A DNA stretch of 64,000 nt from Cafeteria roenbergensis (Eukaryota > Sar > Bigyra > Bicosoecida > Cafeteriaceae). Below, in pieces: positions 11,768-59,384 of this stretch. The DNA is taken from NCBI GenBank assembly GCA_008330645.1, contig VLTN01000007.1, positions 1 to 64,000 of the forward strand, given 5' to 3'. Within the stretch, counting starts at the first letter, position 1. Each line of letters starts with the position of its first letter. The notes beneath the pieces were generated by a model. It searched no databases and had not been told where the DNA came from. It saw nothing but the letters and a program-made list of their open reading frames with translations. The position numbers were made by a program, and so were the translations under genes.

Positions 11768-14700
11768 TTACGAGGGGAGAGACCGGACTCCCGTCTCCAC
11801 CTTCCTTTGGCAGCGATCCAGCAGGCGTTGAGACTGTTGGGAATGAGGGTGGAGCTCGCCGAGCGACTTCGCGAAGATCACAGAGCACCTCGTGAGCAGA
11901 TCCAACGCCGCAACGTACTCCCCCTTGTGCATCCGACACTGAGCTGTAGTGAACAGCGTGTTCGCGAAGCTCGGGTGCTCCTCGCCCACCGACGAGGCGT
12001 AGATGTCCCTGCACCGCCCCAGCAGATCCAACGCCGCGTCGTGCTCGCCCTTGGCCATGCGGCACTGCGCCATCGTGTACAGCGTGTTCGCGAAGCTTGG
12101 GTGCTCCTTGCCAAGCGAAAGAGCCTGAATCTCCTTGCATCGGACCAGCACTTCCAGCGCCGCGTCGTGCTCGCCCTGAGCCAGCCGACACTGCGACATC
12201 ATTGCCAACGTGCGCGAGAAGCTCGGGTGTTCCTCGCCCAGCGACGACGCCCGGATGTCCCTGCACTGCTCCAGCACCTTCCGCGCCACACCGTACTCGC
12301 CTTTGGCCATCCGGGACTGCGCCAACGCGTAAAGCGTATCCGCGAAAGCTGGATGTTCCTCGCCCAGCGACGAGGCCTGGATGTCCTTGCATCGCTCCAG
12401 CAGATCCAGTGCTGCATCGTACATCCCCTTCTCATTGAGACACAGCGCCATCGCGGACAGCGTGCCCGCGAAGGTCGGGTGCTCCTCGCCCAGCGACGAG
12501 GCGTAGATGTCCCTGCACCGCTCCAACAGAGTCAGCGCCGCATCGCACTTCCCCCTGGCCCGCAAGCACTGCGCCATCGTGTACGACGCGCTCGCGAAGC
12601 TCGGGTGCTCCTCGCCCAGCGAAGAGGCGTAGATACCCCTGCAGCGCTCAAGCAGATCCAGCGCCGCATCGTACTTGCCTGTGTCAATCCAGCACTGTGC
12701 CATCGTGTAGAGTGTTTGCGCGTAACTCGGGTGCTCTTCGCCCAGCGACGAGGCCTGGACGTCCCTACACCGCTCCAACAGGCCAAGCGCCGCATCGTAT
12801 TCGCCCCTCTCCATTCGACACTGCGACATCGTGAACAGCGTCTTCGCGAAGGCCGGGTGTTCCTCTCCCAGCGACGAGGCCTCAATGGCACTGCACTGCT
12901 CCAGCAAACCAAGCCCAGCGTCCAACTCGCCTTTGGCCATCCAACACTGCGCCATCGTGGACAGCGTGCTGCCAACTGCCAGGTGGTCCTTGCCCAGCAA
13001 CTTGGCCTGGGTAGCCCTGCACCGCTCCAGCAGCTCCAGTGCCGAATCGTTCTCGCCACGCTCCAGCAGGCGGAATGCACAATTCTGCAGCGTCGGCCCT
13101 GCAGCATTGCTCCCGGCCACGAGTTCGCTCCACCCCGCCGCTACCACTAAGCACAAGACCTCCAACGCGCCATCCGAAGAAGCGCGTGCGCAAGTCTCCG
13201 ACAGCGAGTGCACCGCACCACCGCGGTGGTGCCGCCACGACTCGCTGCACAGCTGCTCGCTCAGCCTCAAACCGCGCAGCTGCGTCGTGATCAAGCGTTC
13301 CGCCAGTCCTGCCGAGCTGCCCCCGAACGACAGCGCAGCGCCTCGCCGCTCGCTCCGCGCGCCGGACCCAGACACCTTCACGCGCCGCTTGCACTCCCGT
13401 TGTATGGCCGCCCACGCCTGCCCGACGGCGCATCCGCCAGCGGCCGCTGCCCGGCCCACCAGCACCGCCGTCGCCAGCGGCACGCCGCGGCCCCTGGCCG
13501 CCACGCCCCGGGCCACGCAGCACGCCAGCAGCCAGGCCGCATCCGCATCGGAGCCACCGGCAGCTCCCTCTGACACCAGACCCTCCAGTGCCGCTGCCCC
13601 GCTCGACCCGGGGCTCGGCAGGCTGGCGCATGCCGCAGCGGCGCGCAGCAACGACGGAGGCAGCCCCATACCGCCGGACTCCCCTGCTCGGCCCAGCACC
13701 ACGCCCAACACCTGCCAGGCGTGCCGCAGCCCCAGCCCGCGGCAGTGCAGGCCAGCTTTCACCGCTCCTCGCACCGAGGCCACGTCATCGCCCTGCCCTG
13801 ACCGCCAGCACGCGACCAGATGCTCCTGCACCGCGTCTGCCGCCCGGCCCACGTTGTCGGTGCCTAGCAACACGCCGCCAGCCGCCACAAGCCTGCCCTT
13901 CGCAAGACCCGCGGCATCCCTGCCACCCGCCATCACGGCGTCCGGTGACACCGGTTCCGCCCCTGCCTCCTGCAGCACGGCCGCTGCCTCGGGACGGAAC
14001 AGCGCCGTCAGGTGCACTGCCCGCCAGAACTGCCCGGGCCGTGGCAGGAGCACTCGGATCGCCCCGTCGCTCGACTGCATCACCGCCACCCCGCAGCACG
14101 ACGCCAGCGGGCCCAGCTCAACTTCGTTCCACGCCGGAGCCGTGCCACCGGTCAGGAGCCCAGCCTCTCGGGCGGCCAGCGTGGCCAAGGCAGCGTCAGC
14201 CGAGCCGCCCTCCGGCAGCCCCACCACTCGCAGCACCGGCGAGGACGAGGACGAGGACGCCGACGCATCCACAGCTGTCCTGCCATCTTCACCATCAGCA
14301 CCAGACGGGATCCCAAGCGCAGCGGCCCATACGACCGCAACCTGGCCACCCGCCGCCGCGCAGCCGCCGGTCACGTCGGGGATGCACAGCCGGTGCGTGT
14401 CCAGCAGCACCACCTCGCCCCTCGGCAGCGCGTGCAGCTCCACGTCGAACGGCAGACGACACGGCACGCCACCGGCGTCTCTGGCCACAGTGGCGCTGTG
14501 CTCCGCGTGCACCGGCCGCAGCGGGTCCAGCACCACGCCGTGCTCCGCCTCCACCGCCGCGCACACACCCGAGCTCTCGGCGGCATGTCGCCCCGCACCC
14601 ACGCTCTCCAGCAGCGCGTCCGTGGCCGGGCCCATCCGCGGGAAGCCGTCCGGGTCCCTGACGCCCCGCACCCTCCGGTACTCGTGCCGCGTGAACAAGC

Positions 14701-15412
14701 CGGAGCTGGGAGCCTTCAGACTCGGGGCCAGGTGCAGCCCCGCCGCCAGCTCCTCCGCCACGTCATCCAGCGCTGCGCACACGTGTGTCGTCTTCCCGCC
14801 GTCACTCGATCCGACCCGCAGCGTGTCGCAGCCGACCGCGTGGCGCGAGAAGCCCTGCACGCGGTACACCCGCTCCGGCCGACCAGCCGCGTCGCGCACC
14901 GTCACGTCCACGCACGACGCCAGCGGCACCGTCAGCAGCCGCGCCGCGTCCGCCTCGTGGAGGTGCGTGAGCATGGCCAGCTCGTGCTTGGCCGCCTTGT
15001 CCGACATCACGGAGGAGCCCTTGTAGATTCCCACCGTGTCCTCGGCGATCTTGAAGAAGGCCCCCGTGCTGGGGTCGGCCACCTTGACACCCCCGGCGAT
15101 GCCTGCTTTCACCACTTGGAGCGCCTTGCCCCCTCCCAAGCGGCCCACGCACTCCAGCGTGAGGTGCAGAATCGTCCTGGCGTCGCCGCTCCGCTTGCGC
15201 TGCTTGGCTTCGTGGAAGCCCCTGGCGATGGCGTCAGCGGCGCCCTCCGTCACGCGCTGGAAGGCCCGCCTCACGCGCGCCAGCTCCTCCAGCCGCTCCA
15301 GGTGGCTGTGGGCGGTGAGCGTGGGTTTGCTGCGGAGGCGCGCGGCCTTGTCGCCCAACGTTTCGGGGCGAGGCGCGCCGGCTGCGGCCGGCCCCTCCGC
15401 ACAGTGCGGCAT
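11768..15412 (-). CDS. Clu-like domain protein with ten kinesin-light-chain-type TPRs
   Basis: The frame is open from 15877 but its first in-frame ATG is at 15412, giving 1214 residues; a 5' exon upstream is possible. Roughly residues 110-320 resemble the Clu domain of clustered-mitochondria proteins (YRVQGFSRHAVGCDTLRVGS, DDVAEELAAGLHLAPSLKA, ELHALPRGEVVLLDTHRLC). The C-terminal third (about 780-1200) carries ten 42-residue TPRs of the kinesin light chain type with core YDAALDLLERCRDI.ASSLG, then EEHPSFA.TLYTMAQCRMAKG. Kinesin light chain TPRs bind cargo and Clu proteins act in mitochondrial distribution, but this pairing does not identify a specific orthologue. The repeats are unusually uniform, which implies recent expansion or gene conversion. 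Confidence 0.75.
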   Translation of the reverse strand: MPHCAEGPAAAGAPRPETLGDKAARLRSKPTLTAHSHLERLEELARVRRAFQRVTEGAADAIARGFHEAKQRKRSGDARTILHLTLECVGRLGGGKALQVVKAGIAGGVKVADPSTGAFFKIAEDTVGIYKGSSVMSDKAAKHELAMLTHLHEADAARLLTVPLASCVDVTVRDAAGRPERVYRVQGFSRHAVGCDTLRVGSSDGGKTTHVCAALDDVAEELAAGLHLAPSLKAPSSGLFTRHEYRRVRGVRDPDGFPRMGPATDALLESVGAGRHAAESSGVCAAVEAEHGVVLDPLRPVHAEHSATVARDAGGVPCRLPFDVELHALPRGEVVLLDTHRLCIPDVTGGCAAAGGQVAVVWAAALGIPSGADGEDGRTAVDASASSSSSSPVLRVVGLPEGGSADAALATLAAREAGLLTGGTAPAWNEVELGPLASCCGVAVMQSSDGAIRVLLPRPGQFWRAVHLTALFRPEAAAVLQEAGAEPVSPDAVMAGGRDAAGLAKGRLVAAGGVLLGTDNVGRAADAVQEHLVACWRSGQGDDVASVRGAVKAGLHCRGLGLRHAWQVLGVVLGRAGESGGMGLPPSLLRAAAACASLPSPGSSGAAALEGLVSEGAAGGSDADAAWLLACCVARGVAARGRGVPLATAVLVGRAAAAGGCAVGQAWAAIQRECKRRVKVSGSGARSERRGAALSFGGSSAGLAERLITTQLRGLRLSEQLCSESWRHHRGGAVHSLSETCARASSDGALEVLCLVVAAGWSELVAGSNAAGPTLQNCAFRLLERGENDSALELLERCRATQAKLLGKDHLAVGSTLSTMAQCWMAKGELDAGLGLLEQCSAIEASSLGEEHPAFAKTLFTMSQCRMERGEYDAALGLLERCRDVQASSLGEEHPSYAQTLYTMAQCWIDTGKYDAALDLLERCRGIYASSLGEEHPSFASASYTMAQCLRARGKCDAALTLLERCRDIYASSLGEEHPTFAGTLSAMALCLNEKGMYDAALDLLERCKDIQASSLGEEHPAFADTLYALAQSRMAKGEYGVARKVLEQCRDIRASSLGEEHPSFSRTLAMMSQCRLAQGEHDAALEVLVRCKEIQALSLGKEHPSFANTLYTMAQCRMAKGEHDAALDLLGRCRDIYASSVGEEHPSFANTLFTTAQCRMHKGEYVAALDLLTRCSVIFAKSLGELHPHSQQSQRLLDRCQRKVETGVRSLPS

Positions 15413-16215
15413 GTCGGTTTCGGGAGCCGCCGCGACAGGACTTGCGCTGGCTTGCGTGACTTGGCCCGGGACGAGGACGGCTTGCTGGAGCACGGGGTCG
15501 TATTGGCCCGCTCCCGCAGCGCCGGCTTCCGAGGCCGCGACGGCTTCCTCCGCACGAGGCACACCGACGCCTATCAAACATGCATCGTAGCCGTCAACTG
15601 CGCCGCGGTCGGCCACTGTGAGGGAGCGGGCGACAGGCCGAGGTCGACGAGCAGCAACCGAACTGGCCAGCCCCCAACGCTCCGACAGCCTGTCCCCCTC
15701 CCTGAGCCCCAAGTTAAAAACGCGCGCCCGCACGATGCTGCGCAAAGAGCTTGTGATACGATGAGGCAGCACCAGGCGCCCACTCACTTGAACCCTGGAT
15801 GCGAGTGCGGTCGCTGAGTCCGTGTGAGTGTTGTTTTTATCGTGCAGCAGGCTGGGCCATAGTTGGGGAGTGCCCACTCAAATAGGAGCCGAGATGAGGC
15901 CAGGATTTGTCGCCGACCGATTATTTGTACCGAGCACACGCGCTTGAGCGCAATGCGGGTCCAGCCGGTTGAGCTACGAGCGCGCGGCCGCAGCTCAATG
16001 CAGCGCAGCATTTCGGGTTGTGCGCCAGTCACGCAAACAGGACGCCATCTCTGCGCATCGCGTCGCGTCGCCAGATCGTCTGCAAACCCTGGCTTCGAGC
16101 CGAAGGCCGGCATCAGCTGGCCTATGCTCAAGCACTCGGCAAGGGAGTGCAAAACGCGCTCGTGGACGGCTTTGGACGTGCTGCGTTGCGGAGCAGCTCC
16201 TCCGCAGATACGCAG
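15413..16215. other. 5' flank of the TPR gene; possible upstream exon
   Basis: The TPR gene's frame stays open to 15877 but lacks an ATG beyond 15412, so 15413-15877 may be 5' leader, intron or extra coding sequence; an acceptor-like GGCGCAG lies near 15600. On the minus strand, 15965-15976 is a perfect RNA polymerase III A-box match (TAGCTCAACCGG), but no complete tRNA can be folded around it. The remainder to 16215 is the 3' flank of the next minus-strand gene. Confidence 0.35.
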
Positions 16216-19200
16216 TCACTTGGGTGCGCCGTCGCGAGGCGCGCTTTCGCCTCCGGCACTGGCATCGATGACCACGCCGTCGTCTGGGGACGGAGGCTGC
16301 CCTTGGCTCTGCTCCGCGGCCGCGTCTTCGGCCGGGTCCGCAGCAGGCGGCTTGTCCTTGGATTCTTCGGGCACCTCAGTCACCCCAGTCTGGCCGCCCC
16401 CGAGCAGAGCCTCAGTCTCCTCGGAGCCAGTGGCTCCAGGAACCTGGCTTTCCGTCACGGTTGCCGACCGAGCTGCGTCCTCAACCTCCTGCGCATCCGC
16501 GTCAACGCTTGCACCGATGGCCTCGAGCTCGGGACTGAGCTGTGATTCGGAATGGGCTCCTGCCGCCGGCTTGGCGGGTGCTGCGGGCTGGCTGGCCGGG
16601 GTCAGGGCGTCTAGAACATCGTCGGCAGTCCTCTGGACCTCGAGGTCTGCGCTTGACCCGGTGCGTTTCCGCAAAATGGCGTCAGCGTCTGGCGCTCTGG
16701 ACCCGCCGACCAAGGCTTCGATCTCGGTTCGGCGGGCGCGCAGCGCCTCGATTCCCTCCAGGGGCGACCGCCGGATCAGGTTTCGGCTCGCCACGAGGGC
16801 GTCGCGCTCCGCAGCTGCTCGCTCTTGGGCCTTGGCCGCCTGCTTGGCGTCCTCGGTTTCCTTCCGGGCAATCGACTCGGCTGCGAGTGCTCGCTGAGCT
16901 GCTTCCGTGCGGGCCTCGTCGAGGGCCCCCACCGTCGCTTTCCACGACTTGCCTTGCTGCTGCATGGCGAGCAGCTCTTCCGCTTGGCGACGCAGGCGCG
17001 CCTTCGCGGCCTCCAAGTCGTTGCCCTTGCTGGCGACTGCGTCCTCAAGTCGGCGCACGGCGACGTCGGCGCTGAGGGCATCTCCGGACGAAAGAGTCTC
17101 GCTCACAGTTCGCGCATGGAGCTCCGCCTTGGCGCGCTCGAGGCGCGACCGGAGCTTGCGCACTTCGTCCGACGCACCTTGTAGCGTGTCGGCCGAAACC
17201 GATACAGCGGACATGGACGCCTGTGCGTCGAGCTCGGCCTTTTCAGTTGTGCCGCGCATCGCCTGCACTTGCGCCGCGAGCTTCTCGTGCTGCTCCTCGA
17301 AGTGCTGGCGGCGGGATCTGTCCGCATCGAGCTCGAGCTTGGCGGCGGCAGTTGCGCGGTCCGCGGCCGCAGCGGCCTGTTCCAGGACAGCGAGGTCGGC
17401 TTGGGCAGTCGCCTCCTGCAAGCCCAGCTTGCTGCGAACCCTGTCCACCGCGGCAGCTTCAGACTTGGCCTCGTCGGCTTTGGCAGTGGAATTGCGCTCG
17501 GCGCTGATCGCCGCCTGTCTAGCCTTGCTTGTGGCTTCCTCGGTCGCGACCTTGAACTTTTCGACCTCCTCAAGGCTGTGTGACGTCCGGGCCAGCGCTT
17601 TGAACTCGGAGTTTTGCCGCTCGGTGTTGTCCTCCACCTCGAACTTGAGTCGCTGTGCTTGCTCAGAGGCGCCAATGAGCGCAGTGGTTGCGTCATCAAT
17701 GATTCCCTTGAGTTTGGCCAGCTCCGCTCCAAGCTCCTGTTTGCGCGAAACCGCTGCCTTCGAAGCCTGAACGCTGCTGGAAAGGAGTTTGATGAGGTCA
17801 GCCACCTGCTTGCGAAGGTCGTCGCGAGCCTTGACGGAGCTGTCAAGTTGGGCCTTGACCGCAACGTACCGGTTCCGCGTGACGGTCTCCCGCTGCTTGG
17901 TCTGGTAGTAGCGGCGGTGCTGCAAATTGCGGTGTTTTTCGTAGTGCCAGTAATTGTAGCACTCCTGGCTCCAGGGCGGGCACTTGGCTCGCGAGGAGGA
18001 ACGGCCTGAGCGCTCGCGGAACCGAGGCATGTCTTCCTCCTCCACGATGGCCTCCTCGGACGCAGGGCCGATGGCCCCCTCCTTGTCAGCGCGCGCTGCA
18101 GTGCGGCCCTCGAGGCCTGCCTCCTGCTGGTGTGGCTGAGCCTGAGCGGAAGCATTCGAGCCGCCGCCTCGCATCAGCGCCTCTGCGTCCATCTGTCCAC
18201 CCAGGGCAAGGTGCTTTGACACCGACGCCGCAGACTCGAGCAGGTGCCGCTCAGAATGCTCCGCTTTGGTCGCATCTGTGCGTGGCGGCGGAGGGCCGCA
18301 CGCCTTGCACGCAGAAACGTCCTCGGAGCAGTCGCACGTTCCCAGGAGACCTTCTGCTGTCGCGGCCACCAGATCGATGTGGTGCTGCAAAGCTGCGTTC
18401 TTCATGACGAGGCTCTCGTAGGTTGCCCGCGACTTCGCCCGCTCAGCCTCATCGAAGCGAGCCCTGTGCTCGGCGGCCTTGCTCTCTGCACGGTGAACTC
18501 GTTCGGCGACCTCGGCCAGCTGGCTGCGGGCCGACTCCAGGGCAGCTTTGACGGCAGTTGCGTTGCTTCGCGCCGCTGCAGTGAGCTCCTCCAGCTGGTC
18601 CTGCTTGAGGGCCAGGCCAGCGGACACGCTGGACAGCTTCTGCAGCTCGCCCTCAAGCGAAGCCCGGCGGTCTGTGAGCTCGGACACGCGAGACGCCGAC
18701 GCGGCAAAGGCGGACTGCGCCATATTCGCCGCCTTGGTCACGCGCGAAAGCTCGTCTCGAAGCACGCCGTTCCGCGTCAGTGCGGAGCCGCTCTTGGCTT
18801 CCAGCTCCTCCTGCTCGGCGCGAACCTCCCGCAAGTGTTGCTCTGCGGAACGTCTGTGCTCCGCGGCCTGGTTGAACTCAACTTGCAGCTGCTGCAGGGC
18901 CTGCTCGGCCTCGGCTGTCTTTGCGAGCTCCGCCTCTCGCTCTGCCTGCAGCGTGGCGAACTCCGACCGGCTTGCCTCCACGTGGTTGCGCGTCTCGTTG
19001 ACTAGCTCGTTCAGGTGGGAGACGGAGGACTCCAGCTGAGCCAGTGCTTTGCCCGCGGCCGAAGCCGCTGCCCGAGCTTCCTCAGTCGTGAGCCTCAGCT
19101 GGATGCGCGACGCCGACGCCACTCCGAGCAAGTGTCCAGACTCCGTCGCCATGGCAACGATGGCCTTTTCATCGCTATCAATCGCCCGCTCGGCCTCGTG

Positions 19201-20323
19201 CTCGCGCTGTGTGATCTCTGCGATGCGCTGTTGAAGCCTGAGGTTCGTGCTGTTGTACGATGAAATTGCAAGCTCCTGGCTCCGCAGGCGTTCCGACAGG
19301 CTGCGGGCCTCGCGGACCTCGCCGGCGCGCTGATGAAGCAGCCCCTCCACCTGGGTCTCGACGACTGCCTGCCCTGCGCGAGCTGACGCCAGCGACAGCT
19401 TGAGGGCCGTCAGCTTGGCCGTCAGTTGCGACTGCGCCTTGTCAGCCTCAGCCTTCTCCTTCATGGCAGGGCCAACCTTGTTGTCGAACTCGGTAGCCTT
19501 GTTGTCGTGGTGGTTGGCCCAGTGGAGCCAGTGGTTGTACTCGTTGCGCCGATGGCCCCAGTAGTAGCAGTCGTGGTGGTGGCGCTTCCAGCAGCCTTGC
19601 CATTTCCAGTACCACTTTGCCCCGGCCTGGGCCTTGGTGCTGGCGCCCACGTGAGCCGACGCAGCGGAGAGCACGGTGTCTGCAGGGCCAAGAATGCAGG
19701 ACACGAACAGGACAAGAAGACCACTGGGGGGGTGGGGGGGGGCGCAAGCTTTGCGCCGGAGCTGCAAACAAAGCGCAGAGCGGCCGTCTTGGGGCGCCTT
19801 GTGGGCAATGGCCCGCAAACGAGGGTGAATATGCACAAGGCGGTGGCAATTAGGCCGGCGACGCAAGGCCGCCCGCAGCAAAGGCAAGCCCAAACGGGGC
19901 GAGACGGATTGAGTTGGCCGCCAATCGCGACTGAAACCCGGCGCTATGCCGCCAGAGGGGCGTCCGCGCTTGGCTTCCGCGAGGCCCCGAGGCGCAAATC
20001 CGTTCCCACAGATTGCCGCAAAGCGGCTCATTGCTCCATGCATCGAGCAAGCGCAGTGCTCTGGCGCGGGGAGGTGTGGGGGAGCTGGCTGCACCAGGGC
20101 GCCGCGCAAAGCGTCGGCCTGTCTCCGGCGCGGCCTGGAGGGAGCTTGTGCTCAAAGCCTAAAACTGGCCTCCCTGTTCACGGGTGGGACTGACACGGCG
20201 TAGGAGCAGGAGGCAAAGACGCTTCTCACCTCGCTGGACGTCCACGGCAGCGACCGGCGCGAGCTTCGAGACCAGCGCAAGCGCGGTGATGCCGGCGGCA
20301 GCCGCGAGCGCGCGGACCGCCAT
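16216..20323 (-). CDS. Large secreted coiled-coil protein with Trp/Tyr/His-rich modules, paralogue 1
   Basis: Exon 1 (20323-20230) encodes a signal peptide (MAVRALAAAAGITALALVSK, then LAPVAA) and joins exon 2 (19679-16216) across a 550-nt phase 1 intron, giving 1185 residues. After the signal comes an aromatic and His-rich head (WYWKWQGCWKRHHHDCYYWG), a coiled coil of about 450 residues, a Cys motif CDCSEDVSACKACGPP and an acidic linker. A second aromatic head (CPPWSQECYNYWHYEKHRNL), another long coiled coil and an acidic tail with AERDALVASRNLIRRSPLEG and LVGG follow. The downstream gene on the same strand has the same plan, so the two are tandem paralogues. I know no described family with this plan; it looks like a secreted fibrous or cell-surface protein. 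Function is unknown. Confidence 0.8.
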
Positions 20324-20937
20324 TGCTGGGGAGAACTGGAAGTCGAGAGTGCGACACTCGCCGCGGTGGCAACGTGCGGCCCGATGCGGGGTGGCTGGGG
20401 CGGCGCCTGCGGGCAGCGAGCGGTGGCGGGGGTGCGCTCGTTTCGCCCGCCCGCGTTGCGGCAGCCCTGCGGTTCTCGCGGGCAACGTCTGCCCGTCGTC
20501 GATCGTTGCTTCCTGGCCCGCAGAGCCTCGCACAACGTGGACCACGGGGCGTTCTGCTCCTTCATCACAACAGCTCGCTGGGCCGGGGCACCGCTCAAGG
20601 CGTGGAGCGAGAAGGGAGCGGGTGGAAGCAGTGCCATGTTGAGCGAGGGGGGAAAGGAGGCACACACACGAACGCAAGCACAAACTCGACCAAAGCACCC
20701 GTCGCTGCCAGCAAGAGCAAGCCGCGGGGCATCCCCGTGCAATGCGCACGCCCGCGCTGCTGACACGTGCGGGCCCGCGTCGGGCAAGGGCTTCCCGGCC
20801 GCGAGCAGCGGGGTTGGCGGACGGCTCGGCCGACGCGGGGGGGGGTGGGGGGGGGGGCAACGGCCAGATCGCCAGGCCGCGCTCTGTTAACCCCAGGCAG
20901 ACAGGCGGGAAGGTCGCGGGAAAGGAGGGTGGCCAGC
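20324..20937. other. Intergenic region between the two secreted coiled-coil paralogues
   Basis: It holds the promoter and leader of paralogue 1 (start codon at 20323 on the minus strand) and the 3' flank of paralogue 2 (stop at 20938). G-rich runs occur at 20838-20859. I see no extra gene. Confidence 0.4.
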
Positions 20938-23900
20938 TCAGGCGGTGGCTGCCTCCATGGCATTGGCCATGTCCGACGAGGCGTCAGTCGATGCGGCCGC
21001 AGAGTTCATGTCCGGTGCGGGCGCTGACTCGCCCGCCGCAGGCGCGGGGGGCGCAGCGTCGCCGGAGGAGCCAGAGGCGGCGGCCCGCTCCTCCTCCGAG
21101 GGAGGGCGCCCGACGCCCATGGCCGCGTCGAGCTCGCGGTCGCCCGACGCGCTGTCGGCGGGGAGGTCCGCGGCGGTGACAGCTGCCGCGCTGGCAATGT
21201 CGTCCACAGCGTTCTGGTCAGCCATGGCGCCGCCGTCGCCGGCAGAGACATCCTCCTCCTGCTTCTCCACCACGGGCTCGGGTACGGGGGCAGGGGCAGC
21301 CGGCTCGATCAGATCGGACACGTCTTCCTCCGCCTCGGGCTCCTCCCCGAGGAACGACGAATCGGCCAGCAGCTTGGCAGCCGACTCGGCGCGCTCGCCG
21401 CCCACCAGGTGCTCGAGAGCCTGGCGGCGCTCGAGGGTCTCGGAGATGCTCTCCAGGGGCGAGCGCACCACCAGGCCGCGGCGCGCGGCAAGGGCGTCCC
21501 GCTCGGCCGCACGAGAGTGGCGCTCCTTGGCCGCCTCGGACGCCAGCTTGGCCTCCTTGTTGGCGACAGCGCCGGCAGCCGCCACGCGCGCGCGTGCGGC
21601 CGTGATCTGGGCGTTGAGGCGCTCGCGCGCGGCCTCCGCGCTCTCCATCTGCGACCGGAAGAGGCGAGCCTCCTCTGCGACGCGCGCCAGGCGGGCCTTG
21701 AGGGACTCGGACTCGGACTCCTTCTCGGACACGGCGTCCTGGAGGCGACGCACCGCAATGCCCACAGACGAGGCGTCGCTCGCGCCCAGGGCGTGGGCGG
21801 AGCTGGCGGCGTGCATGGCCGCCTTGGTGCGCTCAAGCTTGGCGCGGAGGGTGCGCATCTCGCTGTGGGTGGACTTGATGTTCTCCCGGGAGGCCTGCAC
21901 CGCGGCCAGGGAAGCTGCAGCCGACGCCTTGGCGGCCTCGGTGGCGGCGTGGGCAGCCTTGATGTCCTCCTCCGTCTTGGCCACCGTGGCGGAGCGGGTG
22001 TCGCGCAGCTTGGACGACGCCTCAGCGGTGGCGCGCGCCTCGCGCTCCTCCGCGATGGCGTGCTCGCGCGCCGCGAGCGCGGCCCGCAGCTCCGCTGTGT
22101 CCGACTCCTCGCGCAGCTGCAGCGTGGACAGCTCGCCGCTGATGGTGCGAAGCTCCGCCTCAAGCTTGCCCATCTCCTCGCGGAGGGACGACTCCACCTT
22201 GAGCGCGTGCTGCCGCGAGCGGGCGAGGGACTCCGCGGCCTCCGACTGCATGGTCTCGGCCTTCTTGGCGTTGGCCGAGGCGCGCTCCAGGGTGCGGTGG
22301 TCGGCGTTGCGCTCCTCCTTGAGGTCCTCCACAACGAACTCCAGGCGCTCCGCGTTGCTCTGCGAGGCAGCCAGGCCCTTGTACGCCAGCTGCATCTGCT
22401 CGTCGATCGTCTTCATCTGCTCCCGGATCGCGTCCCGGCGCTTGCCCGCCTCCTTGGTCGCCTGGCGCATGTTCTCGTTGGCCTGCGTCTCGGCCTCGAG
22501 CTGCTGCTGGACCTGCGTCCGCTCGTTGTGCACCCGGTCGTAAAAGGCCTTGTTGTACCGGCGCTTGTTGTAAGCGTGGTTGCGGCGCCAGCTCATCCAG
22601 TGCCGCTCGCGGTAGTACTTGTGGCGCCAGTGGTTCTGCACGCCCCACGCCCACGTCTCGTACTTGCAAATGTCGTGGCGCCAGATGCACCACCCGCGGT
22701 GCCAGGGCGGCTGCCAGCCCCTGGGCGGCGTGAAGACCTTCTTGAACTTGTCGTTGAGGCCGTTGACCGGCGACATGGCGGTGGAGTCCGCCTCGGCCTT
22801 GGAGCCCCCGCGAAGGGACACACGAGACTCGCGGAACCGCATGTCGGAGGCGGAGGCGAAGAGCGCGTCCTCCTCCTTGAAGCGGGCCTCCTCGGCCTCC
22901 TTGGCGCCGTCCGCCTCCTCGTCCTCCTTGGCGCCGTCCGCCTCCTCGGCCTCGTCCTCGGCCTCCTTGGCGCCGTCCGCCTCCTCGTCCTCGGCCGCGG
23001 GCGCCGCCTCCTCGTCCTCGGCGTCCTCCTGCTCCGACTCGATCGATGCCACGGCCTCCTCCGCGGAGTGCTCGGCGGCGTCGGCCTCCTCGGCGATCTC
23101 ATCGGCCTCCTCCTGCTCAGCGGGAGCGGCGGACGCGGAAGCGCTGGGGGCGGCGGACGAGGTGGAGCTGGGGGCCGCTGATGCCGTGGAGGTGGGCGTG
23201 GGGGTTGCGGTGGAAGTGGTCGACGGCTCCGAGGACGGCGTGGCGGAGGCAGACATGGACGCCGACGGAGTGGCGCTGGTGCTGGGGGACGGGGTGGGGG
23301 ACATGGCGAGGCTGGCGCGCTGCAGCGCCTCGTCGGCGCCTGCGCGGAGCTCAGCGGCAGCGGCCACCGTCTGGGCGACCGCGTCGTCGCCGGCGCCAGC
23401 AACGTGCGGGCCGCACTTGTCGCACCCGTTGACGTCTTGCGAGCAGTCGCAGAAGCCCATCAAGCCCTCTGCCATGGTCTCGATGTGGCGCGCGCGCCGC
23501 ACGGTGGAGGCGGCGGTCAGGCCGAGGGCCTCGCGACGCGCGCGGCGGGTGGCGATGGCGTCGCTGTCGGCCTGGGCGCGGGCCTGCTCTGCGCGGGCCT
23601 CCGCTGCCTTCTGGCGCAGCATCTGGGCGGTGAGGTCGCGGCGGACGCGGGCGAGCTCCTCCTTGGCCATGGTGGCGTTGACGTGGAGCTCGTCGTGAAG
23701 GTGCTCAAGCTGCTCCTTCTTCTCGCGCAGGGCCGTGGACGCGTTGCTGAGCTCGGCGATGTGGTGCATGAGCTGCTGGCGGCGCTCCGACAGGGCGCCG
23801 AGGGACGCCGTAGAGGTGGAGGCGGCCTCGCGGTTCTCCTTGAGGACGCGGTCGACGAACGACTGCTCCTTGGAGAGCGCGTCGGCCTTGCCCGAGGTGA

Positions 23901-25514
23901 GGCGGTCCTCCTGCTCAGTCTCGGCCTGCTCGCGCGCCTCGTTGGCGGCGGCCTCCATGGCTGCGCGGCGGTCGTCGAGGCTGGTCCCAAGCTGCGCCTG
24001 CAGCGAGGTGAGGCGCAGCTCAAGGGCCTGCGACTCCGTATCGGCGGCGGCGCGCGCGTCGACGAGGCGCTTGTACTCGGCGTGGAGGGCCTCCACCTGG
24101 TCGATGGTCTCGTTGCGGCGGCGCTCCAGGTTCGTCACCTCCTCCACGAGGGCGTCGTGGCGCTGGTGTCCGGCCTTGATGGAGTCCTTGTCCTCCTCGA
24201 TGTCGAGGGAGAGCTGGATGCGGGTGGCGGCTGCCTGGCCGTTCACAGCGCCGGCCTCCTCCAGCTCCTTCACGGTCTGCTTGGCCAGCATGTCCGCGCG
24301 GCGCTCCTCGTCGGCGGCCTCCTTGGTCACGCGCTCGATCTCCTTTTGCAGGCGAATCGCCGTCTGGTTGAGGCCCTTGTGGCGAGCGTCCGCGGCCTGC
24401 GCGCGGCTCACGAGCGCGGCAGCCTCGCGAGCAAGCTTGCTCCGGCGCACCTTCTCCATGCGCAGCAGCTCGGTGGCTCCCTTGTAGACCCCCTCGAGCG
24501 CCTGGCGCGCCATCTTGATGCGGGTGATCTGGTTGTTGATGGAGCCGATCTTCTTGCGCTCATCGCCGGCCTTGGCCTGCAGCTCGCGCGCCTCCTTCTC
24601 GGCACCCTGCCACGCGTCGTGGATGCCCTCCCACGCGTTGATGTAGTTCATGCCGTAGCGGTGGTAGTACTTGATGTTGTGGTAGCACCACCACGGCGCG
24701 CCGCACCACTTGGCCTCCGTGCTCACCGCGGAGCGGCCGGAGCGCTCCATCATGCGGTTGTACGAGTCGCCGGCATCCTTGACCGTTTCCTCGGACCAGT
24801 TGGCGAGGTCCGTCGTGTCCGTCACGTCGACCTGAACAGGCGGGGGAGAGTCGGCGAGCGCCATCTCAGACGCGCCGAGTACAGCTGCGAGCCACAACGG
24901 GGAGCGCGGATTCGGGGGTGCGCACGAGAGCACAGCAGTCGCGACTAGCGAGGAGCGCCGTGCAAGTGTGCATGGGGGCGGGGGAGGGGGGAGCGGAAGG
25001 CAGGCTAGGGGGCCAGGGCGGGCGGAGCGTGAGGCGGGAGAGAGCGGGGCAGTCGGTGCATCAGGCCAGTCCTGAGCCGCAGCACAAGACTTGATGGGCA
25101 GACGGCCCACGCTCGCCCACAGGCCGCCCGCCCCGGAAGTCCCGCCCGCAGGCGTGCCGCGCTCGAGGAAGGCCCGTGCTCCAGGGGGAGTGGTGCGGCG
25201 TGCGGGGCCAGGGTGGGGTGCTCGCCTGCGGCTTTAAGACCCTGGCTGTGAGCAGCCCAAACGCTGCCGCCCGCCTGGCAGCGGACCGCCGCCCCTCTGG
25301 GCGCAGCCGCTGCGCCCGGCCATCCCTCCGCTTCACAATCACCCGAGCGCTGTGCGCGGCAGCGGCGCGCTGGCCGGGCACGGCCGAGCAGCCGGCCGTC
25401 GAGGTGCTTGCGCTGAGCGCCGCTGCAGCCCCCGCAAATCGCGCCCTCACCCTGCTCGGCAGAAGCCGTAATGGCAGCGACCGCCACGGCCAGGGCCATG
25501 ACGATAGCCTTCAT
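20938..25514 (-). CDS. Large secreted coiled-coil protein with Trp/Tyr/His-rich modules, paralogue 2
   Basis: Exon 1 (25514-25451) encodes the signal peptide MKAIVMALAVAVAAITASAE and joins exon 2 (24884-20938) through a 566-nt phase 1 intron, giving 1336 residues. Head 1 is WCGAPWWCYHNIKYYHRYGM, followed by a coiled coil and CDCSQDVNGCDKCGPH. A Ser/Thr/Pro then Asp/Glu/Ala-rich linker with repeated EEADGAKE comes next. Head 2 has GWCIWRHDICKYETWAWG and HWMSWRRNHAYNKRRYNKAF, followed by a second coiled coil and the shared AERDALAARRGLVVRSPLES with LVGGERA near the C-terminus. The same intron phase, module order and Cys motif as the neighbour show common descent. The mucin-like linker fits an extracellular location. 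Function is not known. Confidence 0.82.
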
Positions 25515-26066: not shown

Positions 26067-27665
26067 TCACTCACGCGGTATGGGAGGCCCCCCGGGGCGC
26101 CCCGCTTCGCGGGCCGGCGAGCGCGCTCGCTTTCTGCTCGGCCGCGGTGGCGGCGACTGCGGCTCGGCAAGCGGGTCTGCGTCCGCCAGCAGCGCGGGGC
26201 GCGGCCTTGGCCCGAGAGCCTTGCCAGCTGCCACTGGCTCTGGCTCGGCGGCCGCGGCTTGGCCCGCGATGGCCAGGGCCTCGGCCACCGGCGTCATGTC
26301 GACTTCCACGGGGCGGGAGGTCCGGCGGCGCCTCGGGGGGCTGCCCGTCCCGCCCTCCCCCCTTGCTTCGCGAACGAGGCGAGCGGCCTCTTGGCTTCCA
26401 AGGGCCTGCTCCCAGCTCCTGCCGGTAGGGCAGAGCGATCGCACGACGCACTCGGCGCAGGCGGGGTCCCGGGGCAGGCACACGGTCTGCCCGAAGCCGA
26501 CGAGAAGCAGATTCACCTCGGGCCAAAGCGACCGCGGCAGCCACTCCTCCAGCTGGGCGCGGGTCTCCTCGGGGTTCCGCGTGTCCTGGTGGTGCGGGCT
26601 GGCGGCTAGCGCGGCAGAACACGCAGCAACGTCGGCCGCCGTCACGACGGGGCCCGCGCAGGACGCGTCGCTGGGCTCCGCTGCCTCCGCTGGCCCGGAT
26701 CCGCGTGGCAGGCCTGGGGGGCACCCCTTGCCCGCCGCAGCGCCAGCGCCGGGGTCGCCCGACACCGGTGCCGTGCCGTGGCGGTCCGCGCCCTCCAGCT
26801 TCCCCTCCATCGGGGGAGCGCCCCCGCTCCTTCCCACCCAGCGCAGCCGGTTCGCCACGCGGTGCACGTGCACGTCCACCCCGATTCCGCCCCCGCGGCC
26901 CCACGCGCTGGTCATAGCGATGTGCGCCATTTTGGGCCCGACGCCCTTGAGCCGCAGCAGGCCGGGCAGGTCCGGGGGGATGTCCCCGCCGTGCTCGGAG
27001 AGGCACCGCTGCGCCGCCAGGCGAAGCGTCTCCGCCTTCTTGCGGTAAAACCCCACGGGGTAGATGAGCTTCTGGAGCGCCTCCTCAGGGACGGCCGCCA
27101 GCCGGTCTGGCGTGCAGCCGAAGGCGCGCAGCCGCCCCATGGCGGCGTACGTCACCTCGTCCTTCGTCTGGCTGGACAGCATGAGGCTCACGAGGACCTG
27201 GAAGCGCTGCACCGCCGCTGGCGCGTCGGGGTCTGCCAGCCGCTCGCAGCCCATTGTGTCCACGGGGGCGTCGGCGTCCGCTCGCATGCTCCGAATCCCG
27301 GCGTACACGGCGTCCCAAGCGGCTGGGGCTCCCGCTCCCGCCCCCGCGGCCGCGAGGGCAGCGCGCCCGGGATCCGTGCGCCACGCGGCCATGGCCCCTC
27401 GGGACGGCGGGAGGGGAAGCGCCGAGGGCGTTGCCACGTCAGCGGCCGCGGCTGATGGCGGCTGCTCGTACTCGATCTTCACCGGCGCAGCCCGTCCCGT
27501 GGCCTTCTTGGCTGTGGCACGTGGCTTGCGTGTCGCTCGCGCAGGTGCGGTCGCAGCGTGGCCGCCCGCTTCTGCGGCGCTCACCCTGGCCGCGGCGCCG
27601 GAGTACCGAAAGGCGTTCAGTGCGCTCTCAGCCGCGCCGCAAGAACCGACACTTCGCCGAGCCAT
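26067..27665 (-). CDS. NTH1: Endonuclease III homologue, bifunctional DNA glycosylase/AP lyase
   Basis: This gene encodes 532 residues from ATG 27665. An in-frame ATG at 27827 would add 54 residues through a stretch that looks more like promoter sequence. The HhH-GPD core shows VLVSLMLSSQTKDEVTYAAM and the helix-hairpin-helix LKGVGPKMAHIAM with catalytic Lys (about residue 241). GVDVHVHRVANRL with catalytic Asp (about 260) follows. The iron-sulphur motif C-x6-C-x2-C-x5-C is CLPRDPACAECVVRSLC (about 395-411). The enzyme removes oxidised pyrimidines and cleaves abasic sites in base excision repair, in nucleus and/or mitochondria. A 50-residue insert of low complexity separates the Asp loop from the cluster, and the N-terminal extension is basic (about 130 residues). 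Confidence 0.9.
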   Translation of the reverse strand: MARRSVGSCGAAESALNAFRYSGAAARVSAAEAGGHAATAPARATRKPRATAKKATGRAAPVKIEYEQPPSAAAADVATPSALPLPPSRGAMAAWRTDPGRAALAAAGAGAGAPAAWDAVYAGIRSMRADADAPVDTMGCERLADPDAPAAVQRFQVLVSLMLSSQTKDEVTYAAMGRLRAFGCTPDRLAAVPEEALQKLIYPVGFYRKKAETLRLAAQRCLSEHGGDIPPDLPGLLRLKGVGPKMAHIAMTSAWGRGGGIGVDVHVHRVANRLRWVGRSGGAPPMEGKLEGADRHGTAPVSGDPGAGAAAGKGCPPGLPRGSGPAEAAEPSDASCAGPVVTAADVAACSAALAASPHHQDTRNPEETRAQLEEWLPRSLWPEVNLLLVGFGQTVCLPRDPACAECVVRSLCPTGRSWEQALGSQEAARLVREARGEGGTGSPPRRRRTSRPVEVDMTPVAEALAIAGQAAAAEPEPVAAGKALGPRPRPALLADADPLAEPQSPPPRPSRKRARSPAREAGRPGGPPIPRE

Positions 27666-28063
27666 TGCCCAGGCGCGCCGCAAAGACAGGACGGCTGCTC
27701 CAAGCGACGCTGCGGACGGCTGCGGTGCGCATTCTGGCCGCTCGCCCTCTTGTCCGGCACGGCGAATACATATTGACCGTGCAGCAAACAACTTTGACGA
27801 TTGGCTGTTGTCTGCCCCCGCTTGCATCGGACGAGGCAAGCACCGATGCAGTGCGTGGCGCTCGAGCGGTCGGGCGCCGCTGGCGTCGGCAGGTCAGTTT
27901 GCTGGTTGTCCTGGCAGTGCAGGCGGCGGTGGCGACACGGCCGCGCGCAGAGCCAGCTTCGACAACACACTGCCCAGCAGAGTCGCAGGCCGGTCCACCG
28001 CTCGGCGAGTGTCGGCACTCGCAACGCAGCAGCTTCGCAGCTTGCCTCTTGGTGGGAGGCGTC
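27666..28063. promoter_or_regulatory. Divergent promoter region, NTH1 / lysozyme A
   Basis: The 398 bp separate the NTH1 start (minus) from the lysozyme A start (plus). The part at 27765-27830 is less GC-rich (AATACATATTGACCG, CAACTTTGACGATTGG) and is the best candidate for core promoter elements. No defined box is claimed. Confidence 0.35.
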
Positions 28064-37913: not shown

Positions 37914-40143
37914 CTAGCGCGGCCGCTTTGCCCCCGCGTCGTCCCCCGGGGCGGACCGCTTGCGCGACACGGTCTGTGGCGCATGCGCCAGGGTGATGCC
38001 CCCGCTGGAGTTCTTGGCGACGCCAATGGCGCCGCCATGGGCCGTTGCGATGGACTGGCTGACGCTCGACACAGCGCGCGAGCGGGCAGCCTGGGAGGCA
38101 GCAGAGGCGGCAGCCGCAGCGGAGGACGGCCCTCCCCCGCCGGACGCGGCGGCCGCCGCCGCGGCGTGGCTTCGGGCGGACATCCGCGCGGCCTCGAGCG
38201 CCTTGAGCGGGTCCTCCACCTTGAGGGGGACCACGGCCATCGTCTTGCGCGTGATCTGCAGCGCCATCACCGCGCGCTCGCGCAGGTCCACCGCCTGCTG
38301 CAGCCGCAGCAGGGCGGCGCTCTGCCTGCGCAGCACGGTGAGGGCGTGCAGGGTGGCGGCGCTTGGGAAGATCTTTGCGGCGGCGGCCACCCCCAGCTCG
38401 CCCAGCAGCGACGTCACCTTGATGTGGAGGCGAGAGGCGTGCGGCGTGCCGTCAGGGAGCGCGTTGATCTGCTCGCTGCGAAGGCGGACTCCCGTGAAGG
38501 CATCCAGGCAGGACGTCTTGCCGTTCCAGGCCGCCGGCCCGCCACGCGGGCGCCCCTCCTTGGCTGGGGCGAGCTGCGACAGCAGGGGCACGGACGGAAC
38601 CGGGGCGCTGGCGGCGCCACCTCCCGCGACGGGCGTGCCTGCCGCTGCGGCGGCGGCATGCGGCGCAGCAGCGGAGGAGGAGGACGAAGACGAGGACGAG
38701 GAGGAGGAGGACGTGGCTGGCGCGCCGGCAGCCGCCTCAGTCGGGCCCGAGCCGGAGGTTGCCGCTGCCGCTGCCGCTGCCGCCGCTGCCGCTGCTGCCG
38801 CCGCCGCTGCTGCAGCAACCGCGGACGACGCAGGCTTGGTGGGGACTTCGGCGTCGGTGGGACGCATGGCGTGCTCCTCGAGTCGGTGACGGTCGCTTGT
38901 GACCGCCTCCGCGAGGATGGCGGAGGCGATGGTGCCGCCCTTGGCGGCGGCGCGGAGCTGCTCGAGCCGCTCGTCGATAACCCGCAGCTCGTCCAAGAGC
39001 AGGCGCTCCTGCAGCAAGCGCTCGGGCTTGGTCTTGGAGTAGGCGCCGTGCACGTGCCTCCGCCGCTTGCTGTCCAGCTCGGGGTCGTAGTGGAAGTCTG
39101 TGTACTGCGTGCGGCCGATGGCGCTGTTGCTGTTGGCGGGGAGCGCGTTGATGCGTGCGCGGATTACGCGGGACATGACCGTGTAGAAGCGGCGCTTCAG
39201 CTCCTCCACCTGCACGAACCGCCACGGGAACCTGTCCCGGATCACCGCCCAGCGGAGGTCATAGCGGCGGCACAGGTCGAAGAGCGTGTCGGTCATCTCG
39301 CGGGTCCACTGGGAGTCCGGGTCCGTCGAGGGCGCGTCGGGAGAAGGCGCGAGGTACTTGCGGTAGTCCTCGTCCGTGTACCGGATCAGGTCGATCTTCT
39401 TGTTGAACCGCGCGAACGGGTAGTCGGGGAACTCAGCCGACGCGCGCACCCAGTGCGAGAGCTGGAGCGAGTCCTTGCTCCGGGCCGACGACGTGAACGG
39501 GCGCCAGGCCCTGCGAGCGGAACCGGGGGAGACGGGCAGGGCGCAGGCTGGGCGGCGGTCGCGCGATTCGGGGGCCAGGGCGCAAACGGGCTCGCGCGCC
39601 CAGACCGCAACAGCGCTTACCACTTGGCCGTCTTCTTGCCTCGCATGCGCCGCACAAGCGCTGCCAGCGAGCGGTCCTCGGCGGGAGCCTGCGCGGTCGA
39701 AAGGCGGCGTGGAAAGCAGCGGCAGGCAGTGGGGCCTTGAGCCGTCCACGGCCTCAGGCGGTGCGTGTCCCGGACAGCAGCCCCGACGGACCGATGCAGC
39801 GCCCGCCGGTCCCTCGAGGCCCGGGCAGCGGAGCGCGAGCGCCGCGCGCGCGCAGCGTCGTTGAGCAGCCCTGCACGCCGTGCACCTCTACCGTCCCTCC
39901 CTGTCCCCGGCCCACGGGTCTGCAGGGGCGCAGCACATGACCCCCAGCTCGCCCGTCAGCCCAGCTCACCATCGAGGGGAGGCTGCCGGCGTCCATCAGC
40001 GCAAACGCCTCTCGCGAGAGGCCGTGAGGGCGGACCGGCGCCGCCGCTGCCCCGGAGCGGGAGGAGCGACCGGCCGCGGCCCCCGAGGACGAGTCAGCTG
40101 GTGCGCCCGCGCCCCGCATGATGTCGGCCACGTCGGAGGACAT
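37914..40143 (-). CDS. DMAP1: DMAP1/SWC4 chromatin-complex subunit
   Basis: Three exons encode 612 residues: 40143-39970, 39688-39621 and 39510-37914. Exon 1 starts [20 protein letters not shown] and ends [18 protein letters not shown], like the N-terminus of human DMAP1. The 68-nt exon 2 gives [11 protein letters not shown] and completes a Trp codon across a phase 2 intron. Exon 3 continues [20 protein letters not shown]. The SANT-like domain follows ([39 protein letters not shown]), then a coiled segment and long Ala and Ser runs near residue 300. The family is part of the NuA4 acetyltransferase and SWR1/SRCAP H2A.Z-exchange complexes in the nucleus. Intron 2 uses GTAAG. The gene is divergent from RPS23. 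Confidence 0.92.
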
Positions 40144-48286: not shown

Positions 48287-48664
48287 GGATTCCAGCAGCA
48301 GGCGCGCGCCTGCGTCGGGCCGGGCGGGTTGGGAGAGCGCGCAGGCTCTGTGGCCGGGCGCGGAAGGTGATGCGCGTGAGCAGCTGTGTGTCGGCCTGCC
48401 CGTGCCCGGGGCCCGCGCCGGGCGGGGCCGCCCTCTTGCGCTTGCCACTCTCACCGATATCTGTTCCCCCTGCCTTTCCTGCTGTGGCGGCACTGCGCGG
48501 CCGCAGCTGGGGCCGCTGCCGAGGCGTGGCGGAGGCTTGTCGTCGCCGGCTCTGCCGCCAGCCGTTCCGGCATCCGCAAGCGCGGCGCAAGTCGGGGGCC
48601 ACAGGGCGCCTGCAAAGCCCGCTCGCCTTGCGCTCGCCCCCGGTCTCCGGGCGAAACGGCCGCC
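48287..48664. promoter_or_regulatory. Divergent region between bL36 and SART1
   Basis: This 378-bp gap separates opposed start codons. The SART1 frame is open without a stop back to about 48386, and a 5' exon of either gene could lie here. Confidence 0.35.
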
Positions 48665-58984: not shown

Positions 58985-59384
58985 CGCAGTCCCGCAGCTG
59001 CTGCTGCCCTGGTCTGGGCCCCTGCAAGTCCCCAGCCCCGCTGCGGTGCGCCGCTCGGGGAATGGTCGCCCAGAGGCACCAACGAGGCAAGCCCAAGCGC
59101 TGAGTGCTCTGCCCTGAGTTGGCGCCGCTAGTTCAGGACGCAGGCGCCGTAGTCGGGCAGCGAGTGCGTGTTGTACTGCGAGACTTTTTTGTTTCTCTTT
59201 TTGACTGCGGACTCGCTTGGCCCCGCCACACGAGCGCGCCTGGGGCCGGGCTGTGGCAGCCAGTGGACGGGCTCGCTTGTGGCAGGCAGGCCCGCCGAAG
59301 CAGCGGCTTGCCCCGGGAAGGTCCCAGTCGAGCACGCCGCGGCCCGTGCGACTGCCCAAGCGCGAGTGCCGCCCAGGCGCTGCC
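58985..59384. promoter_or_regulatory. Divergent promoter region, Cactin / unknown protein
   Basis: The start codons are 400 bp apart. The lowest-GC patch (GAGACTTTTTTGTTTCTCTTTTTGACT) is at 59180-59206 and may contain core promoter elements of either gene. No RNA gene is seen. Confidence 0.4.

Follow-up and report, generated by a model that had tools for sequence, protein, structure and literature searches.

A family of three large, probably secreted double-rod coiled-coil proteins in the bicosoecid Cafeteria roenbergensis

Two adjacent genes on the minus strand of a Cafeteria roenbergensis contig (C7; VLTN01000007.1 of assembly GCA_008330645.1), here named gene A and gene B, raise the question of what kind of proteins they encode and whether these belong to any described family. 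The analysed stretch, referred to as the window, comprises bases 1-64000 of this contig, and the searched genome comprises 36,303,456 bases in 167 contigs. An earlier note had regarded the two genes, encoding proteins of 1185 and 1336 residues, as an undescribed family of secreted coiled-coil proteins in which a head rich in Trp, Tyr and His and a long rod occur twice. Both protein lengths and the common strand were confirmed. A third member, paralogue C, was found elsewhere in the genome.

The products of the genes A and B align by BLASTP with 29-30% identity, at expectation values (E) of 2e-26 in the N-terminal half and 4e-24 in the C-terminal half; judged by their sequences, they are paralogues. 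The C-terminal module of A picked up paralogue C at E 4e-20. It encodes 1362 amino acids on the minus strand of contig C72 (exon 1 93912-93846, exon 2 from 93282) and has the same plan as A and B. When five of the six modules (both of A, the N-terminal one of B and both of C) were used for protein searches of the same genome, A, B and C were returned every time, the weakest match having E 4e-20, and nothing besides these three was found with these modules below E 0.014. The next-best matches lay on C24 (E 0.014), C17 (0.022), C40 (0.275), C77 (0.367) and C81 (2.7); the sequences on C17 and C40 were inspected and rejected as family members, the family plan being absent. A search of the genome with the stretch containing the second head of B gave B itself and a chance match on C8 (E 0.46). 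Scores are computed only for candidates that pass a loose initial screen, and more distant members may be present in the genome.

Relatives outside this genome were sought in two scans of viral contigs and one scan of prokaryotes, which gave 66, 47 and 150 pattern matches, respectively, none of them confirmed. With A, B, their four heads, their Cys clusters and both modules of C, no Pfam model reached its cut-off. The NCBIfam matches were to coiled coils only and far below cut-off, the best scoring 35.5 bits against 567 (SMC/Rad50 type), and a sequence search of the PDB gave no match with B at E up to 0.1 and none with its second head at E up to 1. This lack of a Pfam or NCBIfam match at cut-off agrees with the earlier note. 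A description of such a family was not found in the literature searched, and the published annotation may call the proteins hypothetical. The family of A, B and C is apparently undescribed.

The three proteins share two long rods. In A, rod 1 spans about residues 97-478 (18340..19485) and rod 2 about residues 641-1010 (16744..17853); in B, rod 1 spans about residues 116-498 (23455..24603) and rod 2 about residues 801-1170 (21439..22548). These and all further features of the genes A and B lie on the minus strand. The ungapped pairwise identity is 25-28% over the 360 columns of rod 1 and 26-32% over the 382 columns of rod 2, and for all six rod pairs the unshifted alignment was the best of 31 ungapped shifts, by a factor of 1.8-2.0. 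The distance between the first sequon of rod 1 and the CDC motif is 306 residues in A, B and C. In rod 2 of all three, 194 residues separate the F..E landmark from AVR[RK]L, and 118 residues separate the latter from VGG. The RY/KY landmark, which lies where rod 2 begins, is 75, 73 and 75 residues away from F..E, and rod 2 overall is therefore not quite invariant.

A heptad periodicity is clear in all six rods, with a windowed power of 2.3-3.7 versus 1.0-1.1 in shuffled sequences and a period peak at 3.50-3.51 residues, which bears out the long coiled coils recognized earlier. Rod 1 of A keeps a single heptad register along most of its length: the phase stays between 1.15 and 1.78 of 3.5 (within about 0.65 residue) in the windows from A119 to A461 and is lost beyond. 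The signal of rod 2 is weaker, its window power going down to 1.0 and its phase drifting by about two thirds of a residue, and its core positions change in a stutter-like manner. Each rod has at least 360 residues; at about 0.15 nm of helix per residue, this corresponds to roughly 54 nm if the rod is fully extended.

Rod 1 contains three N-glycosylation sequons in A (residues 174, 259 and 404), four in B (residues 194, 279, 402 and 424) and four in C, and all 11 fall on 4 alignment columns. Three of these columns are common to all paralogues and the fourth is found in B and C. The three shared sequons also account for every Asn common to A, B and C within rod 1, and at two of the columns the middle residue of the sequon varies (NST/NQT/NGT and NET/NET/NDT). 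When sequons were placed at random, not one of 200,000 trials shared even two columns. In rod 2, A, B and C together have a single sequon. Independently of the signal peptides, the placement of the rod-1 sequons provides the best evidence for entry of A, B and C into the secretory pathway.

The Cys residues (8 in A, 8 in B and 6 in C) all lie within the heads or the CDC...C cluster, and the six 365-residue rods have none. The cluster, which in A and B takes the form CDCS.DV..C..CGP pointed out in the earlier note, is CDCSEDVSACKACGP in A (residues 480-494, 18292..18336) and CDCSQDVNGCDKCGP in B (residues 500-514, 23407..23451). It is followed by the linker between the modules, which in A covers residues 495-583 (18025..18291) and in B, where it is Ser/Thr/Pro-rich and then acidic, residues 515-703 (22840..23406). 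Within this otherwise poorly alignable linker, a basic motif RFR[EQ] occurs ahead of module 2 in all three proteins; it is part of RFRERSGRS in A (residues 584-592, 17998..18024) and of RFRESRVSLRGG in B (residues 704-715, 22804..22839). Towards the C-terminus, the AERDAL..RSPLE..LVGG motif occupies residues 988-1024 of A (16702..16812) and 1148-1184 of B (21397..21507). Both AERDAL and RSPLE are missing from C, and VGG.RA is common to all three. An acidic tail motif PGATG[SD]..T[ED]A occurs in A and C and is degenerate in B. In A it is VPGATGSEETEALLGG, within the acidic tail (residues 1111-1126, 16396..16443), and the corresponding segment of B is LPADSASGDRELDAAMGVG (residues 1262-1280, 21109..21165). 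The earlier note described neither the third member nor the conserved sequons, and the RFR[EQ] and PGATG-like tail motifs are likewise additions to it.

A hydrophobic first exon was searched for with a rule comprising an ATG, a hydrophobic core, the lack of an early acidic residue and a phase-1 GTGAG or GTAAG donor. The rule, whose limits were set only after the exons of A, B and C had been seen, found a match upstream of A, B and C alike; of 244 pieces of the window used as controls, one matched. The single control match is the gene B exon itself, cut at the edge of a piece. In the resulting models, exon 1 of gene A (20230..20323) encodes the putative signal peptide (MAVRALAAAAGITALALVSKLAPVAA...), a 550 bp phase-1 intron with a GTGAG donor and a GCAG acceptor is predicted from sequence at 19680..20229, and exon 2, an open frame at 16216..19679, encodes the remainder of the 1185-residue protein. 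Exon 1 of gene B (25451..25514) likewise encodes a putative signal peptide (MKAIVMALAVAVAAITASA...). It is followed by a predicted 566 bp phase-1 intron with a GTGAG donor and an AG acceptor (24885..25450) and by exon 2 (20938..24884), an open frame for the remainder of the 1336-residue protein. The phase-1 intron of paralogue C, also with a GTGAG donor, is located at 93845-93283 of C72; a second candidate for its exon 1, which lies within exon 2 and is less likely, also turned up. As read from sequence, A, B and C each begin with a signal-peptide exon, which a phase-1 intron separates from a single large exon, as had been proposed for the first two, and we infer that exon 1 is joined to exon 2 in A and B. 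The intron lengths are nearly equal in the three genes (550, 566 and 563 bp) despite a rod identity of only about 27%.

Beyond residue 35, the highest mean hydropathy over 19 residues is 1.09 in A, 0.84 in B and 0.96 in C, and in the last 60 residues the value is at most about 0.02 in each. With hydropathy so low beyond the signal peptide and at the C-terminus, there is no evident membrane or glycosylphosphatidylinositol anchor. All three proteins are net acidic, with more Asp and Glu than Lys and Arg. At the codon positions 1 and 2, the paralogues show 46-53% identity versus 28-38% in a shifted control; at position 3, the values are 38-53% versus 32-44%. The guanine-cytosine (GC) content of third positions is 77% in gene A versus 92% in B and 91% in C, and the codon bias of A is thus unlike that of its neighbour B and of C.

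The heads set C apart from the other two paralogues. In A, the aromatic head 1 lies at residues 52-90 (19504..19620), and the 59 residues from 42 to 100 contain 7 Trp, 8 His, 4 Tyr and 2 Cys; head 2 lies at residues 596-640 (17854..17988). In B, the aromatic heads lie at residues 79-115 (24604..24714) and 745-800 (22549..22716), with 9 Trp between residues 736 and 815. Paralogue C lacks aromatic heads. Of its 1362 residues, 3 are Trp, versus 10 Trp for A and 15 for B, and each head region of C has one Cys. The Trp/Tyr/His-rich heads are therefore ruled out as the hallmark of the family. A and B contain all the elements listed in the earlier note, namely the aromatic heads, the Cys motif, the acidic or mucin-like linker and the C-terminal motif. 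Of this plan, the double rods, the Cys cluster and the signal-peptide exon extend to C; the aromatic heads and the AERDAL and RSPLE motifs do not.

The order head-rod-head-rod had been taken as a sign that the module itself was duplicated before the gene. Compared with heptad-block shuffles, rod 1 and rod 2 gave z-scores of -0.6 to 1.9 in all nine comparisons. A profile comparison of rod 1 with rod 2 gave a probability of 4.9%, E 0.0081 and a score of 27.5, where 60 controls had a mean of 20.9, a standard deviation of 3.5 and a maximum of 29.4. The two rods show no detectable relationship beyond the heptad background, and for the rods the internal duplication is unsupported. With the heads included, one of nine module pairs reached z 4.7 and the others 0.3 to 2.9. 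Among the heads, 3 of 15 pairs differed from composition shuffles at p<0.05 (A1-B2 0.020, B1-A2 0.005 and C1-B2 0.035), and all three pair an N-terminal with a C-terminal head (3 of 9 such pairs). Even the heads at the same position fail this test (A1-B1 p 0.058, A2-B2 p 0.140), so their resemblance is mostly one of composition. BLASTP aligns head 1 of A with head 2 of B at E 1e-4, and ERSGRS is seen by eye directly before both head 1 of B and head 2 of A. Together with the shuffles and the z-score of 4.7, these provide weak hints of internal duplication in the heads. A very old module duplication is conceivable.

With moderate confidence, we lean towards regarding A, B and C as secreted structural rods that are N-glycosylated, capable of forming disulphides and locked in length, and from which a fibre outside the cell or in a granule is assembled. 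The chains would enter the endoplasmic reticulum, where rod 1 would be N-glycosylated at the conserved sequons; they would pair as coiled coils and be cross-linked by disulphides at the rod ends. Packing of the rods side by side in fixed register, perhaps in mixed A/B/C assemblies, would then form the extracellular or secretory-granule fibre. The RFR[EQ] motif, located in the linker between the modules, may serve for docking or as the point of cleavage during maturation. The aromatic heads, missing in C, may provide A and B with adhesive or cross-linking ends. The interpretation in the earlier note is supported as regards a family of large, secreted double-rod proteins that are probably structural; the aromatic heads are no longer its hallmark.

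Several results weigh against a secreted rod of fixed length that packs in register. In the middle of rod 2, the ungapped identity falls to 16-22% for A-B and A-C and MAFFT sets small compensating gaps, so the equal spacing need not mean the absence of indels. The total numbers of sequons, compared with the expectation from composition, are 5 versus 3.1 in A, 5 versus 4.4 in B and 4 versus 3.4 in C; it is their placement, not their number, that is unusual. Judged by eye against the consensus, the basic motif does not amount to a canonical furin site in each of the three proteins. Parallel in-register charge pairing of rod 1 is not generally favoured, the in-register position ranking 3 (A-A), 33 (B-B), 29 (C-C), 31 (A-B), 9 (A-C) and 35 (B-C) among 41 shifts. 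None of the six spectra of axial charge exceeds the 95% control level, the nearest being that of rod-2 charge (6.9 versus 7.2). The AlphaFold2 models, built from two-row alignments, are mostly long helix for both rods, which together with the heptads agrees with the predicted coiled coils, and their predicted template-modelling scores (pTM) are low. Rod 1 has a mean predicted local distance difference test (pLDDT) value of 74.0 and a pTM of 0.38, with helices at 58-283 and 289-434 of the modelled stretch; the values for rod 2 are 67.8 and 0.24. A Foldseek comparison of the rod-1 model with the PDB gave seven matches at E <=0.001 (best E 2.6e-4, query TM-score 0.36) to SMC, MukB and Rad50 arms and to chemoreceptors, mostly hairpins of the SMC-arm type; the rod-2 model had no match below E 0.87. 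A hairpin fold of rod 1 would give a shorter rod and speaks against a straight parallel one. These predicted models do not settle the oligomeric state.

The hairpin matches suggest that the proteins might be monomeric antiparallel helical hairpins resembling SMC arms, and extracellular spacers or adhesins, not fibre subunits. Besides the two main helices of the predicted rod 1 and its best PDB matches, mostly SMC, MukB and Rad50 arms, the antiparallel charge pairing of rod 1 is consistent with this: one and the same offset ranks first for A-A, B-B and A-B and second for A-C. This peak, however, amounts to about 3 standard deviations, is the best of all offsets tried and comes from homologous chains. 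The two helices are of unequal length (226 and 146), the heptad phase is nearly continuous over the predicted break, with a shift of about 0.3 residue, and single-chain prediction tends to fold back oligomeric coiled coils. We regard the hairpin as quite unlikely. Just as improbable, in our view, is that A, B and C work as granule contents like the ciliate proteins of the trichocyst or mucocyst matrix. In an extrusome or a regulated secretory granule, they would be acidic coiled-coil precursors that are cleaved between the modules, packed and expanded on release. The signal-peptide exons, the net acidic composition of all three and the two rods with a linker carrying a common basic motif fit such a role; their length of 1185-1362 residues lies above that of known matrix precursors, and no Pfam model reached its cut-off.

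As components of mastigonemes, the tubular hairs of the anterior flagellum, A, B and C would be assembled in the endoplasmic reticulum and delivered to the flagellar surface. Described stramenopile mastigoneme proteins are Cys-rich and of the EGF type, whereas A, B and C have 6-8 Cys and no EGF match. According to PMC11412368, tripartite tubular mastigonemes are typically present on the anterior flagellum of stramenopiles. The absence of a confirmed relative in the two viral scans and the prokaryote scan fits a mastigoneme role weakly; such a role is doubtful. The fixed rod length at low identity also leads to a bolder proposal than the fibre that we favour. In intermediate filaments and fibrinogen, such conservation is expected where rods match partners or neighbours. 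Under this proposal, the chains A, B and C would each require the others as partners in a single secreted hetero-oligomer, a sugar-studded, disulphide-capped, length-locked double rod that is the repeat unit of a bicosoecid-specific extracellular structure and an independently evolved stramenopile counterpart of keratin or fibrinogen. This seems unlikely to us, and the negative charge-pairing result for rod 1 stands against it as it does against the favoured fibre.

The window has a GC content of 70.6%. Pfam matches were obtained for 2 of 10 neighbouring open frames and for 3 of 8 further ones scanned. A CLU-domain protein with a long TPR array (11771-15877, minus strand; TPR_12 E 3e-55) adjoins gene A, and a HhH-GPD base-excision DNA glycosylase (26070-27893, minus strand; E 4e-20) adjoins gene B. 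Further away lie a DMAP1-like SANT protein (37917-39887, minus strand), a SART-1 family protein with HIND motifs (48380-51406, plus strand) and cactin (56564-61306, minus strand). These five look like ordinary genes, and no functional tie of the genes A and B to their neighbours was seen among the 18 scanned frames. A 9-base pattern had 598 and 597 matches in the genome versus 686 and 612 in the control and was uninformative.

Structural proteins of the bicosoecid surface, flagellar hairs or granules were not found described in the literature searched. Strain BVI of C. roenbergensis is now named C. burkhardae, according to PMC6972860, and PMC7852580 states that many highly expressed genes of this species have no match at all. 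The three-gene family with its conserved rod geometry provides concrete candidates and localizable markers for bicosoecid structures, and it is a clear case of paralogous rods kept at a fixed length at about 27% identity.

Among known systems, the arms of SMC and Rad50 are matched by NCBIfam through the coiled coil only and by Foldseek; A, B and C have a signal peptide and no ATPase head match, and the similarity is that of generic coiled coils. Diatom cingulins and silaffins are likened by description, as stramenopile proteins that are secreted and have segments rich in Trp or Tyr, but A, B and C are coiled-coil rods and not Lys-rich silica proteins. The ciliate TMP and Grl matrix proteins, which A, B and C exceed in size, are also likened by description and not by sequence. 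They are secreted acidic coiled coils (in part according to PMC9159632), a description that A, B and C fit, and the latter contain a possible processing site. Intermediate filaments share with the family a head-rod-tail order and a rod length fixed across diverged paralogues, and the rod-2 shift of A, B and C is stutter-like; unlike them, A, B and C carry two rods and Cys clusters and have no filament-domain match, and their signal peptides and sequons point to the secretory pathway and not to the cytosol or nucleus. Chains of the fibrinogen and laminin type are secreted and paralogous, with a length-conserved coiled coil, Cys clusters at the rod ends and N-glycosylation sites. A, B and C differ from them in having two rods per chain and no Pfam match to the fibrinogen C-terminal or laminin globular domains; rod 1 of the family, with one Cys per head in C, is likewise a length-conserved coiled coil bounded by Cys clusters.

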